Source: Bacteroidota bacterium (GTDB taxonomy: Bacteria; Bacteroidota; Bacteroidia; AKYH767-A; 2013-40CM-41-45). Taken from it: a stretch of DNA of 64,000 nt. Positions 47,675-64,000 of the stretch are shown here, in pieces. Each line of letters starts with the position of its first letter. The first letter of the stretch is position 1. The stretch is from positions 62,001 through 126,000 of the forward strand of contig SHNE01000020.1 of assembly GCA_004295015.1 (NCBI GenBank). Direction: 5' to 3'. A program made the position numbers and the translations under genes. Under the pieces are notes generated by a model that worked only from the letters and a program-made list of their open reading frames with translations, did no database searches and was not told the DNA's origin.

Positions 47675-50600
47675 TTAGGACTCTGTACCCAAACCTGATT
47701 TCTTTCTCGAAATAAACGTATACATAGCCGGAATCACATAGAGCGTAAGCACCAATGAAAATGCAAGGCCGCCAACAACTGCAATCCCCATAGGCATCCG
47801 GCTTTGTGCACCATTACCCAGGCCAATTGCAATTGGTAATGCACCAAGGATGGTAGCAAAACTTGTCATCAGTATTGGACGTAATCGTAAGGTGGCTGCT
47901 TCTATTACCGCTTCGTTTATACTCTTTCCCGCTAACTTTTGCTTATTGGCAAATTCAACAATCAAAATTCCATTTTTTGTCACCAAACCGATAAGCATGA
48001 TCATACCAATCTGACTAAATATATTCAGTGTCTGATTAAACATCCAGAGTGTGAAAACTGCTCCGCCCAAAGCCAATGGAACAGTAAGCATAATAATAAT
48101 GGGGTCAATAAAACTCTCAAACTGAGCAGCAAGAATTAGATATATTAATATCAAAGCAAGGATGAATGCGAATAATATATTGGAACTGCTTTCAGCAAAA
48201 TCCCTGGAAGGTCCTGTGAGATCAGTATTAAATGTCGGATCCAACACGGAAGCAGAAATTTTATTCATAGCGTCAATGCCATCACCGATGGTTTTACCCT
48301 GAGCAAGACCTGCAGAAATGGTGGCGGACTTATATCTATCGTGGTGATAAAGCTGTGGAGGATTACTCTCTTCAGACAGAGATACTACATTATCCACTTG
48401 AATAAGTTGGCCATCCTGATTACGAACGTATAGTGATTTTAAATCAAGTGGCTCATCCCTGTTCTTTCTATCAACCTGCACCATCACCTGATACTGTTTA
48501 CCATTCATGTTGAAATACGAAATTCTGCTGCCGCTATATGCCAACCGGAGTGTTTGTGCAATATCATTTACAGACACCCCAACAGCACGTGCACGATCTC
48601 TGTCAATATTGACGAATAATTCGGGTTTATTAAATTTCAAATTAACATCTACACCTTGAAAGGTGGGGTCTTTATATGCTGCATCAAGAAAATCAGGAAG
48701 CTTTTCTTTAATTTTATCAAAGGTTGCATTTTGTATAACATATTGCACTGGCAATCCACCTCTGGCAACACCACCCACACTTATCGTTTGTTCTTGAATA
48801 ACGAATGCTTTTCCTTCCGGAAATGTTCTCAATTGTTTTGAAAGGTAATCAGCAATTTCCTGTTGCGAACGATCTCTGTCTTTAGCCTCCAGAAGGGATA
48901 ATCTGGAAAAACCTGAATTGACCGCACCTGAACCGGCAAAAGAAGGTGCCGTCACCGTTAACACCACTCTTTTTTCGGGGAGGGAATCAGTCACCATTTG
49001 ACTGATCTTATCCATGTAATCATCCATATATTCATAGGAAGTTCCTTCAGGTGCACTCACTGCCAGCCTGACCCAGTTTCTATCTTCCAGAGGAGCAAGT
49101 TCACTCTGGAGCAGTGCGCCAAAGCCAAATATCATAGCGACAGGAACAAGGATTAAAACAATCGCCCATTTTCTTCTCTTCATGAAATTACTGAGTGACT
49201 TTTGGTATCTGTCGTTCAAACTTTGGAAGAAGGGTTCCGTTTTAATATAAAATTTTGAATGGCCTTTATCTTTTCGTGCAAGTAATACATTCAGCACTGG
49301 TGTTAAGGTAAGGGACACAAAAGCAGAAATAAGTATTGCTCCGGCCATAACGATGCCGAACTCCCGGAACAATCTTCCTACAAATCCTTCCAGAAAAATT
49401 ATGGGAAGGAATACAACAGCCAGCGTGATAGAGGTTGATACCACTGCGAAAAATATTTCATTTGAACCTTCTCTGGCTGCATCCATAGGACGCATGCCGG
49501 ATTCAAGTTTCTTGTAAATATTTTCCGTTACAACAATTCCATCATCCACAACAAGGCCGGTTGCTAATACAATGGCAAGCAGGGTGAGAATGTTAATGGA
49601 GAAACCGGCAAGGTACATAATGAAGAATGCACCAATCAATGAAACCGGTATGTCGATCAGTGGTCTTAAGGCAATTAACCAGTCTCTGAAAAACAGAAAA
49701 ATAATCAGCACTACAAGAATAAAAGCGATTAATAATGTTTCAGCTACTTCCCAGATCGACTGCCTGATGAATAGTGTTTTATCTAAGGCAATATTGAGTG
49801 TAAAATCTTTAGGCAGATCAATTTTCAGCTGCTCATACCGTTTGTAAAACTCATCGGCTATTTCAATATAGTTTGATCCGGGTTGAGGTACAATGGCCAT
49901 ACCGATCATTGGTGTGCCACTTTCTTTTAATATAGTTTCCTCATTTTCGGTACCAAGAGCGGCGTATCCAACATCCTTTAATCTGATATTTTGTGTTCCG
50001 GTGGAGGCAATTATCAGATCATTAAATTCAGCTTCAGAACTCATCCTTCCCATCGTTTTCACGGTCAGCTCCGTTGTATTACCTGCCAATTTTCCTGCAG
50101 GTAATTCTATGTTTTCTCTGTTGATGGCGTTTTCAACATCTAAGGCAATAAGATTGTAAGCACTCAGTTTCTGTGGGTCAAGCCAAATGCGCATGGCATA
50201 TTTTTTTTCCCCCCAAATTTGTACCGTACTTACACCCGGTATCGTTTGCAATCGCTCAAGAATAATATTGGATGCGTAATCACTTACTTCGAGCTGACTC
50301 CGTGAATTACTTACTACCGTCATTGATATTACAGCATCGCTATTCGCATCAGCTTTAGTAACAACAGGTGGAGCATCAATATCCTGAGGCAATTGTCGCA
50401 ACACCTGAGAAACCTTATCTCTCACATCATTTGCTGAAGCCTCTAAATCTGTTTCGAGTCCAAATTCAACGGTGATAACACTGGATCCCTGATTGCTTGC
50501 AGATGAAATCGAACGTATTCCTGCAATTCCATTTATTGCCTTCTCAATAGGTTCCGTTATTTGTGATTCGATAATTTCAGCATTTGCTCCCGTATAATTG

Positions 50601-57983: not shown

Positions 57984-60900
57984 TTGACTAAGTATCTTTC
58001 GAAGGAACTTCAAACAAAAATTCAAATTGAAAAAGTTCAGATTAATTTTCTTTCCGGATTCACGCTCGATGGGGTCTATTTAGAAGATCAACATGAAGAC
58101 ACCCTGCTATTTGCTAAGTCGATTGGATTTACAGTACGCGACATAAGTACCTCAGAACGGAAATTACTGGTTAAAAGAATTAGCTTGTCTCAGGCAAGTT
58201 TCCACCTGAATCAATATGCAGGTGAGGAGCACGACAACCTATATTTTCTTCTCGACTACTTCACAGGTAGCGATTCAACTGTAGATTCCACTTCAAAGGC
58301 ATGGGATGTACGATTTGAAAAAATTGACCTTGACAATGTTGCTTTCAAACATTGGGTTGAAGGAGATACTCTCTCGCCGGTTGGGATAAATTTCACAGAC
58401 ATTTCAATTGATAAAATCTATGGCTCCTTTGAAAAATTGCGTTTTGAAGGGGACTCCTTATTTGTAGACATTAACAGGCTATCATTCCGGGAGAAAAGTG
58501 GTTTTAAGGTAAATGAATTTAGAGCAAGAGCCAAGATTGCCTCTAATGAAATGCGTTTTACAGACTTACACATCAAATCTCCTCAGACTGAAATAAACGG
58601 GAACCTGACATTTGAGTATGACAGCTTTGCCGATTTCACTTGGTTCACAAGACTAATTCAATGGAAAGCTGATTTTGTAAACACGAATGTATCCTTTGAA
58701 GACATTGCCTACTTCGCTCCCGATCTGTGGGGAATAAAAAATGTTCTCGCATTATCCGGAAATTTTAAAGGCAGCGTGCACAAGTTCAAAGGAAAAAATG
58801 TTGATCTCCGCTGGGGAGAAAAATCTTATTTCAAAGGGAACGTCGGAATGTATGGCTTACCAAATTTCGCAGAAACCTTTATGGATGTTCAGGCAGATGA
58901 GTTGAGCACCACTAAAAAGGACGTGGAAGTTTTTCCATTATATCCATTTACTGAAGGCAAAACTTTAAAACTCCCTGATAATATGGCTACGCTGGGGGAG
59001 GTTAAATTCAAAGGGAAATTTACCGGGTTCTATAGTGACTTTGTTGCCTATGGAAATATAAGCACTGCCCTGGGGTATATTTCATCCGATCTGAATCTGA
59101 AACATGATGCCAAAACATCAAACTATTTCTATCAGGGTCATCTTTCTGCAACCAATTTCAATGTCGGAAAATTAATTTCTAAAAATGATCTGGGCTTAGT
59201 GAGCTTCAATGCTCAAGTGAAAGGAAGTGGTCTGCGTATCGATAACATTGATGCACGAATGACAGGGACTGTACAGGCACTTGGATTTAAAAACTATACT
59301 TATCGGAATATAAAAGTCGATGGGGAGTTGTCAAAAAAACTTTTCAATGGAGCATTAACTATCCATGAAAGAAACCTGGATCTCGATTTTCAAGGTGCTA
59401 TTGATTTCAGGGATTCACTACCCCTGTTCAATTTTACTGCAATGATTGACAATGCTAACCTGGATTCTCTGCATCTCATTGAACTTCCAAATGAAAATAT
59501 ATTAAAAACTTCGGTAACCAGCTCTCTCAGAGGAAACCGGCTGGATAATCTGGAAGGTTCAGTTGAAATTTCGAATACCTTTCTTCGCAATGGAAAGCGC
59601 ATGTACAGAATTAACAATGTATTACTGACAGCAAGGAAAGAATCCACCTCACTTAAAAGTCTGAAGTTAAATTCAGATTTTATGGATGCCAGTATTAATG
59701 GTCAGTTTGAACTTGCAAGTCTCATGGATGCATTCAAGGAAATATTGCCCCGGTATCTTCCTTCCGTGGTACTTCCTCTCAAAAAAAATCCTGGTAATCA
59801 AAATTTTAGTTTCGACATCCATCTGAGAAATACCAATCTTATCACTGAAATTTTTCTTCCATCTTGGACTATTGACCCAATGACTTTTTTAACCGGAAAA
59901 GTAAATACGGTTGATCAGTCATTCAACATGTTCTTACAGTCACCTAGCATACGATATAACTCTCTGGTTTTTCATTCGGTTGATTTAAAAGTAAATGCAA
60001 ACAACAGTGAAATGTCAATGTTGGCTCATCTAAGCCAGTTTAATTTCAGTGAGAAATCCTACATCCCAAATGTAGAACTGATTTCGTCAGCTAAAGGAAA
60101 TGTGATCAAGGCAGATCTTCATTTGGCCGATGCAGACAGCTTTCCAAACAGGGCGCATTTGAAAGCAGGTGTCGAATTTTTTTCCGCTACCAGATTTGAT
60201 CTTAAATTCGATACATCATCAATCGTCCTGAAAAATAAATTGTGGAATATCAATTCATCAAACATTGTAGCATTTGATAGCAGCAGCATCCGCTTTAGCA
60301 GTTTAAGTTTTAGTAGTGAAAACGAATCTGTAGATGTAGATGGAATTATTGGCACCTCAATTGAAGAGAATTTAAGGCTTAAGTTTAGCAATTTTAACCT
60401 CAACAATTTAGATCCACTGCTACAACTTGGAAACAGCCGGGTTGGTGGTCGTATCAACGGAGACCTGATTTTGAATGAAGCCAGGACAAATCTCAAGGCA
60501 GAAACTGATTTGATGATTTCAAACCTGGTCCTAAACGATGACACCTTGGGAAATGCTAAAATTGTTTCCAGGTTTAATGGAGAACAAAAAATTGTGGTTG
60601 CTAATATTGAAATAACAAAAGGAACTGCAAAAATAATAGACATCAAAGGAAATTATTATGCTGCTAAGGAAGAGGACAATCTGGATTTCGACATTCATAT
60701 CTCAAACCTCTATCTTAGAACAATTGAAAGATACATTGATGAAATACTTTCTGAGGTTCGTGGAAAGGTTTCAGCCGACTTAAAACTCACTGGTACTATG
60801 AAGGAACCCGTATTTGAAGGATCGGTAGATTTTGCCAGAGCCACTTGTATTGTAAATTACCTGAACACAAAATATAGTTTCACAAATACGGTAAAAGTAA

Positions 60901-62291
60901 GTAAGAACGTTTTTGATCTCTCCGGAGTAACGATAATAGATAAAGATAATAACGAAGCGAAAGTCAAAGGAAAAATCACACATAATTTCTTTGATCAGTT
61001 TGCTTTTGATGTTGAGGTATATCCTAAGAATTTTCAAATGCTTAATACAAGTTATGCTCAAAATTCACTTTACTACGGAAATGCAGTTGTGAGTGGCTAT
61101 GCTCATTTTTACGGACCCTTGAACCAGATTGCGATGGATATTAATCTTTCACCCGGCAAAGGAACCTTAATAAATATTCCACTCAGTAATTCCGCAGAAG
61201 TTACCCAGAGTGATTTTATAACTTTTGTGGATCATACAAAGAATTACGAGTATGATGAGAAACCGCGTTCTCTGGTGACAAATTCAGGAATAAGTTTGAA
61301 TATGAATCTTGACATGAACCCGAGCGCAACCATTAATCTGATATTCGACGAGAAGATTGGTGACGTGATTTCAGGTACCGGTGATGGAAGTATCCGACTT
61401 GATATTAATACCAATGGTGAGTTCAGCATGTACGGAACCTATACAATTTCCAGAGGTGAGTATCTTTTCACTTTGCAAAACCTGATTAACAAGAAATTTA
61501 TAGTCGACTCAGGAAGTAAAATAACCTGGGCAGGAGACCCATACGAGGCGAATGTTGACCTGTCGGCTGTTTATGTATTATATACATCCTCACTCTATAA
61601 TCTTGTTCAGGATTCAACCTATAAGCGACGTTTACCGGTTGAATGCCGGCTTCTCTTGACGAATAAGCTTTTGAACCCTACCATTAATTATGAAATTAGT
61701 GTCAGAGGTCTTGATCCGACCGGGGAGAGTATAGTTAAGAGCATACTCAATTCTGAGCAGGAGGTCAGCAAGCAAATGTTTAGTTTATTATTATTGAATC
61801 AATTTTCTCCTCCATCCAGTCAGACAGCTTCATCATCCCGAATCGATGCCGGAGCCGGAGCCGGAGCAAGTGCCTCTGAGTTGTTAAGTAACCAGGTTAG
61901 CAATTGGCTTGGAAGACTCAGCAAAGATGTAAATATTGGAATCAATTACAGATCAAGGGACAACTACAGCAATGAGGAAATTCAGTTACTCTTCGCAAAG
62001 TCGTTATTTAATGATCGATTACTCGTTGAAGGTAATGTGGGTTATACAAGCAATCAAACTCAAAACACAAACGATCTGGTAGGTGATTTCTATGCTGAAT
62101 ATAAGGTCAGTGAAGATGGCCGCTTTCGATTAAAAGGATTTAACAGATCCAACGCAGATAACATTTTAAATTATTCTGCTCCATATACACAAGGTTTTGG
62201 TATTTTCTTCCGTCAGGAATTTAATGACATTCCTGATTTACTAAGGAGACTTAAACTGCTGGATCGAGAAAAAAATAAAAACTTGCAATAA
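57984..62291 (+). CDS. tamB: TamB/DUF490 family translocation and assembly module (anchor missing)
   Basis: 1435 aa from the first in-frame initiator (TTG 57984) after the amber codon. The body is a long repetitive beta-taco with YLSKELQTKIQIEKVQI at the start and the C-terminal DUF490 domain with ISRGEYLFTLQNLINKKF, YEISVRGLDPTGESIV, SLLLLNQFSPPSSQ and YKVSEDGRFRLKGFNRSN. TamB spans the periplasm with a BamA-like partner and is tied to outer-membrane protein insertion and lipid traffic. Without the upstream TM helix (57825-57947) it could not anchor to the inner membrane, so either the stop is an error, it is suppressed, or the gene is disrupted. A short GCCGGA repeat at about 61850 encodes an Ala-Gly stretch. 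Confidence 0.85.
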   Translation: MTKYLSKELQTKIQIEKVQINFLSGFTLDGVYLEDQHEDTLLFAKSIGFTVRDISTSERKLLVKRISLSQASFHLNQYAGEEHDNLYFLLDYFTGSDSTVDSTSKAWDVRFEKIDLDNVAFKHWVEGDTLSPVGINFTDISIDKIYGSFEKLRFEGDSLFVDINRLSFREKSGFKVNEFRARAKIASNEMRFTDLHIKSPQTEINGNLTFEYDSFADFTWFTRLIQWKADFVNTNVSFEDIAYFAPDLWGIKNVLALSGNFKGSVHKFKGKNVDLRWGEKSYFKGNVGMYGLPNFAETFMDVQADELSTTKKDVEVFPLYPFTEGKTLKLPDNMATLGEVKFKGKFTGFYSDFVAYGNISTALGYISSDLNLKHDAKTSNYFYQGHLSATNFNVGKLISKNDLGLVSFNAQVKGSGLRIDNIDARMTGTVQALGFKNYTYRNIKVDGELSKKLFNGALTIHERNLDLDFQGAIDFRDSLPLFNFTAMIDNANLDSLHLIELPNENILKTSVTSSLRGNRLDNLEGSVEISNTFLRNGKRMYRINNVLLTARKESTSLKSLKLNSDFMDASINGQFELASLMDAFKEILPRYLPSVVLPLKKNPGNQNFSFDIHLRNTNLITEIFLPSWTIDPMTFLTGKVNTVDQSFNMFLQSPSIRYNSLVFHSVDLKVNANNSEMSMLAHLSQFNFSEKSYIPNVELISSAKGNVIKADLHLADADSFPNRAHLKAGVEFFSATRFDLKFDTSSIVLKNKLWNINSSNIVAFDSSSIRFSSLSFSSENESVDVDGIIGTSIEENLRLKFSNFNLNNLDPLLQLGNSRVGGRINGDLILNEARTNLKAETDLMISNLVLNDDTLGNAKIVSRFNGEQKIVVANIEITKGTAKIIDIKGNYYAAKEEDNLDFDIHISNLYLRTIERYIDEILSEVRGKVSADLKLTGTMKEPVFEGSVDFARATCIVNYLNTKYSFTNTVKVSKNVFDLSGVTIIDKDNNEAKVKGKITHNFFDQFAFDVEVYPKNFQMLNTSYAQNSLYYGNAVVSGYAHFYGPLNQIAMDINLSPGKGTLINIPLSNSAEVTQSDFITFVDHTKNYEYDEKPRSLVTNSGISLNMNLDMNPSATINLIFDEKIGDVISGTGDGSIRLDINTNGEFSMYGTYTISRGEYLFTLQNLINKKFIVDSGSKITWAGDPYEANVDLSAVYVLYTSSLYNLVQDSTYKRRLPVECRLLLTNKLLNPTINYEISVRGLDPTGESIVKSILNSEQEVSKQMFSLLLLNQFSPPSSQTASSSRIDAGAGAGASASELLSNQVSNWLGRLSKDVNIGINYRSRDNYSNEEIQLLFAKSLFNDRLLVEGNVGYTSNQTQNTNDLVGDFYAEYKVSEDGRFRLKGFNRSNADNILNYSAPYTQGFGIFFRQEFNDIPDLLRRLKLLDREKNKNLQ

Positions 62292-62332
62292 TTATTTGAG
62301 TGTATATAAATTCATGTCCGGCTTAAAATAAA

Positions 62333-62364
62333 AAAACCGAACCTTACGGGGTTCGGTTTTCTTT
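62333..62364 (+). terminator. Rho-independent terminator after tamB
   Basis: An 11-bp perfect stem, AAAACCGAACC (62333-62343) with GGTTCGGTTTT (62350-62360), closes a TTACGG loop and is followed by CTTT. It lies 42 bases past the tamB stop. Confidence 0.85.
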
Positions 62365-62396
62365 GATCAACCTGTTAGGTTGTCATTTGTGTTCAA

Positions 62397-62441
62397 CCAT
62401 ACGTGTTTCAGTTTTGTTTGTGTTTGTTATACAATGATACA
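62397..62441 (+). repeat. Intergenic repeat unit, copy A
   Basis: Begins CCATACG (62397-62403) and ends ACAATGATACA (62431-62441), with a T/G-rich filler. The same two motifs recur in copy B at 62622-62659. A 10-codon ORF (ATG 62434 to TAA 62466) begins in the end motif. Confidence 0.55.
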
Positions 62442-62556
62442 ACGTGCAGCTTGCTGTGGTAAATAACTTTTCAGAGAATCTTACAGTTTATTATTTTTCT
62501 TACCACCGTACCCGGGAACACATTCTCAAGCATAAACCAAAAGGTCTGAAATAAAC

Positions 62557-62614
62557 AAACGCTGCCGAGCCTTACGGGGCTGTGCAGCGTTTGAGAGTAA
62601 CCTTACGGGGTTAC
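62557..62614 (+). repeat. Pair of hairpins with TTACGG loops
   Basis: The first hairpin pairs AAACGCTGC (62557-62565) with GCAGCGTTT (62584-62592) around an inner AGCC/GGCT stem and a TTACGG loop; the second pairs GTAACC (62597-62602) with GGTTAC (62609-62614) around the same TTACGG loop. The loop and its CC/GG closing pairs are identical to those of the terminator at 62333-62360. The first could terminate transcription weakly (TTTG); the second has no T tail. Confidence 0.65.
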
Positions 62615-62621
62615 CGGTAAA

Positions 62622-62659
62622 CCATACGCTTTTGTCTAGGTTTATATTACAATGATACA
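62622..62659 (+). repeat. Intergenic repeat unit, copy B
   Basis: Begins CCATACG (62622-62628) and ends ACAATGATACA (62649-62659), seven bases shorter between the two motifs than copy A. In both copies the unit follows a TTACGG-loop hairpin. Confidence 0.55.
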
Positions 62660-62849
62660 GCATGTTTGAACCACATAGTATTCACAAACGGCTATAAACT
62701 CACAGCTGTAAGTTTTCTCAATTATTGAAGGAAGGAGTCCGGGTTAACGATGTTTTTTGCTCAGAAAAGCACAATATTCGAGTATTACTTAAATTTCAAT
62801 TGACAGATTTTAAACTTTCCTGTTCAATTTGCTTCAAAAAATTGAAATA

Positions 62850-62877
62850 TTGGTTAGCCGGAACTTTGTTAACTTTG
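62850..62877 (+). promoter_or_regulatory. Bacteroidota-type promoter for ribBA
   Basis: TTG (62850-62852), a 17-base spacer, and TAACTTTG (62870-62877) match the TTG/TAnnTTTG consensus and lie 20 bases before the ribBA ATG. Confidence 0.68.
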
Positions 62878-62897
62878 CAAAGTTTCAAATTCCAAAT

Positions 62898-64000
62898 ATG
62901 TTCAAGCTTAATACAATTGAAGAAGCCCTCTCTGACCTGCAAGAAGGCAAAGTAATTATTGTTGTGGATGATGCCAACAGAGAGAATGAAGGGGATTTCA
63001 TCGTCCCGGCTGAAATGGCAAGTCCTGAAGTAATAAATTTTATGGCTACACATGGAAGGGGTTTAATATGTGTTGCCTTGACAGAAGATAGATGTCAGGA
63101 GTTGGATCTTAATCTGATGGTCCAGAAGAATACGTCAAGCCACGAAACACAATTCACTGTTTCTGTTGACTTGCTTGGTTTTGGAACGAGTACCGGAATT
63201 TCAGCGAGTGATAGATCTAAAACCGTGCGGGCATTGATTGATCCATCCACAAAGAAAGAGCATCTAGGTAGGCCGGGGCATATTTTTCCTCTCATAGCTA
63301 AAAAAGGCGGAGTTCTAAGGCGGACAGGGCATACAGAAGCAACTGTCGACCTGAGCAGACTGGCCGGTTTCAAACCAGCCGGTGCTTTGGTTGAAATTAT
63401 GAACGAAGATGGAACCATGGCCAGGTTACCGGACTTGATTAAAATTGCCGAAAAATTCAAACTGAAAATTATTAGTATTGAAGATCTGATCGCTTATCGG
63501 TTAAAGAAGGAAAGTCTCATCGAAAAAGAGGTGAGCGTTAAACTTCCAACTGTTTGGGGTGATTTTGACTTGCATGCATATAAACAAATTACCACAGGAC
63601 AAGAGCATCTCGCTCTGGTTAAGGGAACATGGAAAAGTGATGAAGCCGTTCTGGTAAGAGTACATTCTTCCTGCCTGACAGGTGACATTTTTGGATCGTG
63701 CAGGTGTGATTGTGGACCACAATTACATTCATCTATGGAGATGATTGAGAAAGCAGGAAAAGGTGTGATAGTTTACATGAATCAAGAAGGAAGAGGTATT
63801 GGTTTGCTGAACAAACTTAAGGCATACAAACTTCAGGAGAATGGACTTGATACAGTAGAAGCAAATATTGAGCTTGGCTTTGAAAGCGATGAACGAGATT
63901 ATGGAGTCGGAGCACAGATATTGCGCGATTTGGGAGTGTCAAAGATGAAACTGATGACAAACAATCCGAAGAAAAGAGCCGGTTTAATTGGCTACGGACT
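62898..64000 (+). CDS. ribBA: Bifunctional RibBA (DHBP synthase / GTP cyclohydrolase II), 3' end outside the window
   Basis: ATG 62898 opens a frame of 367 codons that reaches the window end without a stop. The first half is 3,4-dihydroxy-2-butanone-4-phosphate synthase: [37 protein letters not shown] and [16 protein letters not shown]. The second half (from about residue 210) is GTP cyclohydrolase II with the three zinc Cys in [16 protein letters not shown] and the NQEGRGIGL loop. Together they make the two precursors of riboflavin. The acidic loop has DDANREN where DDEDREN is usual. The promoter is at 62850-62877. Confidence 0.95.

Follow-up and report, generated by a model that had tools for sequence, protein, structure and literature searches.

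The tamB-ribBA gap and its hairpins

The window (the whole stretch of 64,000 nucleotides that was analysed) ends in two plus-strand genes, tamB (57984..62291, from a putative start codon; Pfam PF04357, E 6e-55) and ribBA (62898..64000, cut by the window end; Pfam PF00926 and PF00925). The gap between them contains CCTTACGGGG three times, with loops at 62344-62349, 62572-62577 and 62603-62608, exactly where a preliminary description of this DNA had placed them. The stems of the three hairpins measure 11 bp, 4 bp (with 10 bp more below an internal loop, where 9 had been counted) and 6 bp. The CCATACG and ACAATGATACA elements reported after each group of hairpins are also present. This arrangement had been taken for two copies of one module, a view that is strongly supported by the alignment across the hairpins of relatives and by covariation; the repeat unit consists of one long and one short hairpin and is found twice in the gap. 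The three hairpins first noticed are thus present, but the total is four. The one that was overlooked, the short hairpin of copy 1 (CAACC-TGTTA-GGTTG on the plus strand), escaped attention because its tip had changed to TGTTA, with loss of the CCGUAA loop, while its stem remained intact. The first hairpin had been described as the tamB terminator and it does carry a T-run on the plus strand, but it is also flanked by a longer one on the minus strand, so that it should be regarded as a two-way terminator. No FMN riboswitch was found by the Rfam scan upstream of ribBA (62800-62898); for ribBA itself, TAACTTTG at 62870 is the probable promoter box.

Genome-wide, CTTACGGG occurs 43 times and the reverse of this word, used as a control, 72 times. 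The sites that form hairpins are restricted to three intergenic loci: locus A in the tamB-ribBA gap, locus B (C12:99715-99776) downstream of a DUF6580 gene, and locus C (C20, ~47950-48000), where two hairpins lie directly past the terminator of a putative smc gene. The latter two loci came out of the genome search for further copies that the preliminary description had recommended. Nearly all the remaining sites are inside ORFs and have stems of 3 bp or less. A search of the genome with a covariance model of the single hairpin returned the three loci and one weak match, and the set of hairpins at these loci exceeds the chance expectation in a genome-wide comparison. The elements resemble REP/BIME sequences in being intergenic hairpins that are often near gene 3' ends, but they differ from them in their few loci, conserved positions and fixed tip on variable stems. 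The earlier suggestion of a mobile or REP-like repeat was rejected because there are only three loci in the genome and their positions are syntenic between genera.

Conservation of the tip and the stems

Comparison of locus A in 10 genomes showed that both sides had changed in 10 of 20 pairs, with a covariation score of 0.38 against 0.15, and the observed covariation was reached by none of 500 shuffles; RNAalifold, unaided, gave the same structure. The long stem appears as CGCTGC/GCAGCG, CGCCGC/GCGGCG, AAGCCGC/GCGGCTT or AAGGAG/CTCCTT, always paired and always around the same loop. The covariance check that had been proposed therefore found covariation in related genomes. When 52 diverse Bacteroidota hairpins were aligned, the covariation score was 0.81 against 0.22 after shuffling, there were 138 double-change cells against 50, and all seven pairs showed double changes. 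Even the closing pair varies, from CG to AU or UA, and the hexaloop stays: CCGUAA is invariant across these 52 hairpins, which were selected by this loop. Among the hexaloop hairpins of arrays, in clusters that were likewise selected by this loop, 146 of about 164 carry it and 7 have TTACAG, a variant with a single change. Altogether, covarying stems and an invariant hexaloop strongly support the original idea of a structured RNA or binding loop in which the tip, rather than the stem, is kept. The minor loop variants seen in the arrays L131, L177, L085 and L096 are TTACAG, which reads CTGTAA in the orientation of the RNA, and TTATGG; each differs from TTACGG by a transition at its CG step.

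Arrays of 2 to ~14 hairpins with the same loop and differing stems are present elsewhere in Bacteroidota, among others in Adhaeribacter, in a Chitinophagaceae isolate and in Chitinophagales MAGs; the strict triple pattern was found in 3 of 395 genomes across the phylum. Outside Bacteroidota, the triple pattern appeared among the matches listed without varied-stem arrays, in sequences that resemble coding or simple repeats. The linkers of the arrays are T-rich on the TTACGG strand, that is, A-rich in the proposed RNA, and most of the hairpins are not followed by U-runs. Arrays are frequently located close to the 3' ends of genes, in both orientations, and an all-against-all BLAST of their neighbours found no common partner gene. 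The Adhaeribacter arrays (L110 569-661 and 4997-5113; L149 1439-1642) adjoin related genes for uncharacterised proteins of 90-98 aa. In one genus of the sister family f4 an array lies between a DUF4476 gene and korA (G030, G033 and G036), and in sister genomes (L315, L316 and L317) it is replaced by a single CCGTAA-loop terminator with a U-run upstream of korA.

Family f4 also has hairpins beside ribBA. Fourteen f4 genomes were examined, and in 13 of them (G020 being the exception) the region upstream of this gene contains 2-5 hairpins whose loops read C(C/T)GUAA; every one of these lies on the strand that diverges from ribBA, and the opposite strand has none. The f4 RNA is larger, ~300-400 nt when measured from the first to the last conserved element, folds strongly (z ~ -5 to -8) and contains a module, UUAGGUUGAU-GUCAG-stem-CCGUAA-stem-CUGAC, repeated 1-3 times in most genomes. 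The inner stem of this module covaries strongly, and a model built on the module matches most f4 genomes, with nearly all the strong matches at one locus per genome. TGTAAG/CTTACA half-sites were detected upstream of the f4 RNA in 11 of 12 cases, against 1.7 in shuffled sequences. In the genomes examined from f3, from f5 and from further families of the class, no hairpins of this type were found beside ribBA.

The transcribed strand and a gene model

The preliminary description read the plus strand without questioning this choice; its hairpins are real, but judging from the promoter box, the dyad and the T-runs, the gene belongs on the minus strand. The working strand is thus probably the opposite one, with CCGUAA as the loop. 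In family f1 the signals follow a fixed minus-strand order, namely a dyad CTTAC-N4-GTAAG, ~50 nt, a TANNWTTG box, the hairpins P3, P2 and P1, and a T-run after the end hairpin, and according to this order ACAATGATACA corresponds to the promoter box and CCATACG to part of P3. Of the 18 family clusters, 9 have the dyad at positions -104 to -120 relative to the first loop (0.22 in shuffles), and none has it downstream. Six of the 10 genomes with locus A have the TANNWTTG box at a comparable position, and in flavobacteria the -7 box for sigma-A reads TAnnTTTG (PMC9723704). A promoter box was searched for on the TTACGG strand and none was enriched there, nor was a TANNWTTG-type box enriched over all arrays. 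Folding is about equally strong for both strands, and G-U and A-C mispairs are in ratios of 28:22 on the TTACGG strand and of 5:6 and 4:2 on the CCGTAA strand, so that the assignment of the strand rests on the signals, the position and the sister family. The plus strand was dropped as the RNA because it is opposed by the f1 dyad, the -7-like box and the T-runs, together with the divergent-strand hairpins at the ribBA gene of the sister family. In families other than f1 and f4 the choice of strand is less certain, as U-runs are on the TTACGG strand in some arrays, and the orientation of arrays to the neighbouring genes varies.

According to these signals, the gap probably holds two tandem minus-strand sRNA genes of ~100 nt each, divergent from ribBA and convergent with tamB. 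The predicted gene of copy 2 (62546..62645, with its start inferred from the -7-like box) would give an RNA that folds into three hairpins (z -4.4). These are P3 (62618..62644, TAAACC...GGTTTA), the element in which CCATACG had been noticed; P2 (62597..62614, GTAACC-CCGTAA-GGTTAC); and P1 (62556..62593), the putative terminator, with a 10-bp stem, an internal loop, a 4-bp stem and the CCGUAA loop, followed on the minus strand by a T-rich run (62546-62555). Both P2 and P1 covary in the 10 genomes. The -7-like box TATCATTG, which is ACAATGATACA read on the other strand, is at 62650..62657, and ~50 nt before it there is a dyad of the CTTAC-N4-GTAAG type, CTTAC-AGCT-GTGAG (62697..62714), which is a likely transcription-factor site. 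The predicted gene of copy 1 (62324..62428) has its -7-like box TATCATTG at 62432..62439 and a half-site TGTAAG upstream of it (62480..62485), and it ends in P1 (62335..62358) with a T7ATTTT run; this P1 has the CCGUAA loop and doubles as the tamB terminator on the plus strand. As P2 of copy 1 (62368..62382) has kept its stem and lost its tip, copy 1 retains one CCGUAA tip out of two.

A dyad of the TTACANNTGTAA type was also found at G000:C8:106786 (L263) and in L265, L269 and L270, which makes four genomes of the family, and there it sits between a gene for an exported-looking protein of 175-195 aa and a 429-aa HTH-like gene. With the dyad also present there, the sRNA genes could be part of a small regulon. 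The regulator was sought through the genome-wide dyad sites and none was identified.

A possible decoy RNA and its alternatives

No Rfam 15 family was above the gathering threshold, which supports the initial impression that this is no known riboswitch or ncRNA family, and the literature searched has no mention of a CCGUAA loop or of this locus. The RNA family appears to be undescribed; the kind of RNA is already known. Several systems have features in common with it. The ANTAR RNA is a two-hairpin antiterminator whose hexanucleotide loops keep A1 and G4, and decoy versions of it exist. The paired hairpins and hexanucleotide loops are shared, but the loop CCGUAA (UUACGG on the other strand) does not follow the A1/G4 rule and the RNA is not the leader of a regulated operon, so we rejected this candidate. 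The guanidine-II (mini-ykkC) riboswitch consists of two short hairpins with ACGG in the loop, and ACGG is contained in the plus-strand loop described here; it was rejected because its Rfam model gave no match (E up to 5), the RNA is not the leader of a guanidine gene, and the loop has six bases and occurs in long arrays. FopS and GibS of Bacteroides are, in turn, a multicopy Bacteroidota sRNA family associated with an RNA-binding protein, RbpB. However, the regions bound by RbpB are mainly single-stranded, and FopS is composed of one single-stranded 5' part and a terminator (PMC11697453).

The closest likeness is to CsrB, CsrC, RsmY and RsmZ, with a row of hairpins that have one fixed loop and differing stems, a variable number of hairpins (here 2 to ~14), more than one gene per genome, and TGTAAG/CTTACA half-sites before the gene. 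The loop here is CCGUAA instead of GGA, and CsrA (PF02599) is absent from the 41 relatives searched, whereas the E. coli, B. subtilis and T. maritima controls were matched; for these two reasons we rejected the Csr system proper. The UvrY site is TGTAAG-N6-CTTACA (PMC4682653) and the half-sites of UvrY/GacA-type sites are enriched here, but in the arrangements CTTAC-N4-GTAAG or TGTAAG-N6-TGTAAG, and having the same half-site as UvrY may be due to chance.

Hairpins, covariation, loop invariance, the position by ribBA, the upstream sites and the T-runs were all obtained by sequence comparison. Starting from them, we infer a chain that runs from activation by a regulator, promoter activity, transcription and transcript ends to the existence of a binding protein and its titration. 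Binding of a transcription factor to a site of the TTACA-NN-TGTAA type would probably activate a sigma-A-like promoter, giving a ~100-nt RNA of hairpins in which the stems are free and the tip C-CCGUAA-G is fixed, and the last hairpin with its U-run would terminate transcription. This RNA would titrate one protein that reads the CCGUAA loop, as CsrB or RsmZ titrates CsrA. Because only the tip and the pairing are kept, and relatives multiply the hairpins to ~14, a platform for multi-site binding is the most likely function, and the locus could well encode an undescribed regulatory RNA that acts as a CsrB/RsmZ-like decoy (sponge) for such a putative RNA-binding protein. The covariance-model search of the genome found no hairpins of this kind dispersed among mRNAs as targets, so the mRNA sites of any protein reading this loop would not have the same hairpin form and would be single-stranded or weaker.

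Other explanations have to be considered. The RNA could bind a large complex or a ligand without any titration, as a 6S-like or riboswitch-like RNA or an RNA machine would do. The length of the f4 RNA (~300-400 nt), its strong folding (z ~ -5 to -8) and its additional conserved UUAGGUUGAU-GUCAG...CUGAC element, repeated 1-3 times in most genomes, are in favour of this, but a free number of hairpins (2 to ~14) suits a decoy with repeated sites better than a fixed architecture, and transcription away from ribBA means that the RNA is no leader of this gene; we therefore find this explanation doubtful. We also consider it unlikely that the CCGUAA loops are antisense seeds pairing with UUACGG in target mRNAs, where many loops would provide avidity or many targets. 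A fixed loop on free stems is also expected of a loop seed, dispersed hairpins that could be protein sites are absent from the genome, and the genomic CTTACGGG sites are mostly within ORFs. Nevertheless, these sites are not enriched (43 versus 72 for the reversed word), no clustering of them by start codons was noticed in an informal look, six bases make a short seed, and the bias extends to the closing and adjacent pairs, which is more like a protein site.

An element acting at the DNA level (a cruciform or single-strand hairpin, REP-like or a protein anchor) would not require any RNA role. It would be in agreement with the about equal numbers of G-U and A-C mispairs, with arrays that are often near gene 3' ends in both orientations, and with a promoter box that is not enriched over all arrays. 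The three loci of the genome with their synteny between genera, and the fixed order of promoter box, dyad and terminator in f1, make it improbable, as do linkers that are strongly T-skewed on the TTACGG strand, which a strand-neutral DNA element does not need. Finally, the hairpins could be nothing more than strong terminators of the usual kind, arranged in tandem and sharing a favoured loop, since U-runs end several of them and sister genomes have a single CCGTAA hairpin with a U-run before korA where others have the array by the DUF4476 gene. However, the genome shows no enrichment of the word and its other CTTACGGG sites form no hairpins, most hairpins of the arrays are devoid of U-runs, and rows of up to ~14 hairpins that all keep one invariant loop exceed what termination needs, so this is the explanation that we consider very improbable.

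If the RNA is a decoy, as we favour, Bacteroidota would have to possess an RNA-binding protein that reads hairpins and has so far gone unrecognised, together with a regulatory layer of global reach. It is possible, as a more tentative proposal, that CsrA-less Bacteroidota have independently evolved a global Csr-like system, in which a TGTAAG-binding regulator would switch on CCGUAA-array decoys of a putative protein. This could be relevant because the relatives searched have no CsrA and few regulatory RNA systems are understood in Bacteroidota, and the fixed loop would be a ready bait for finding the protein.
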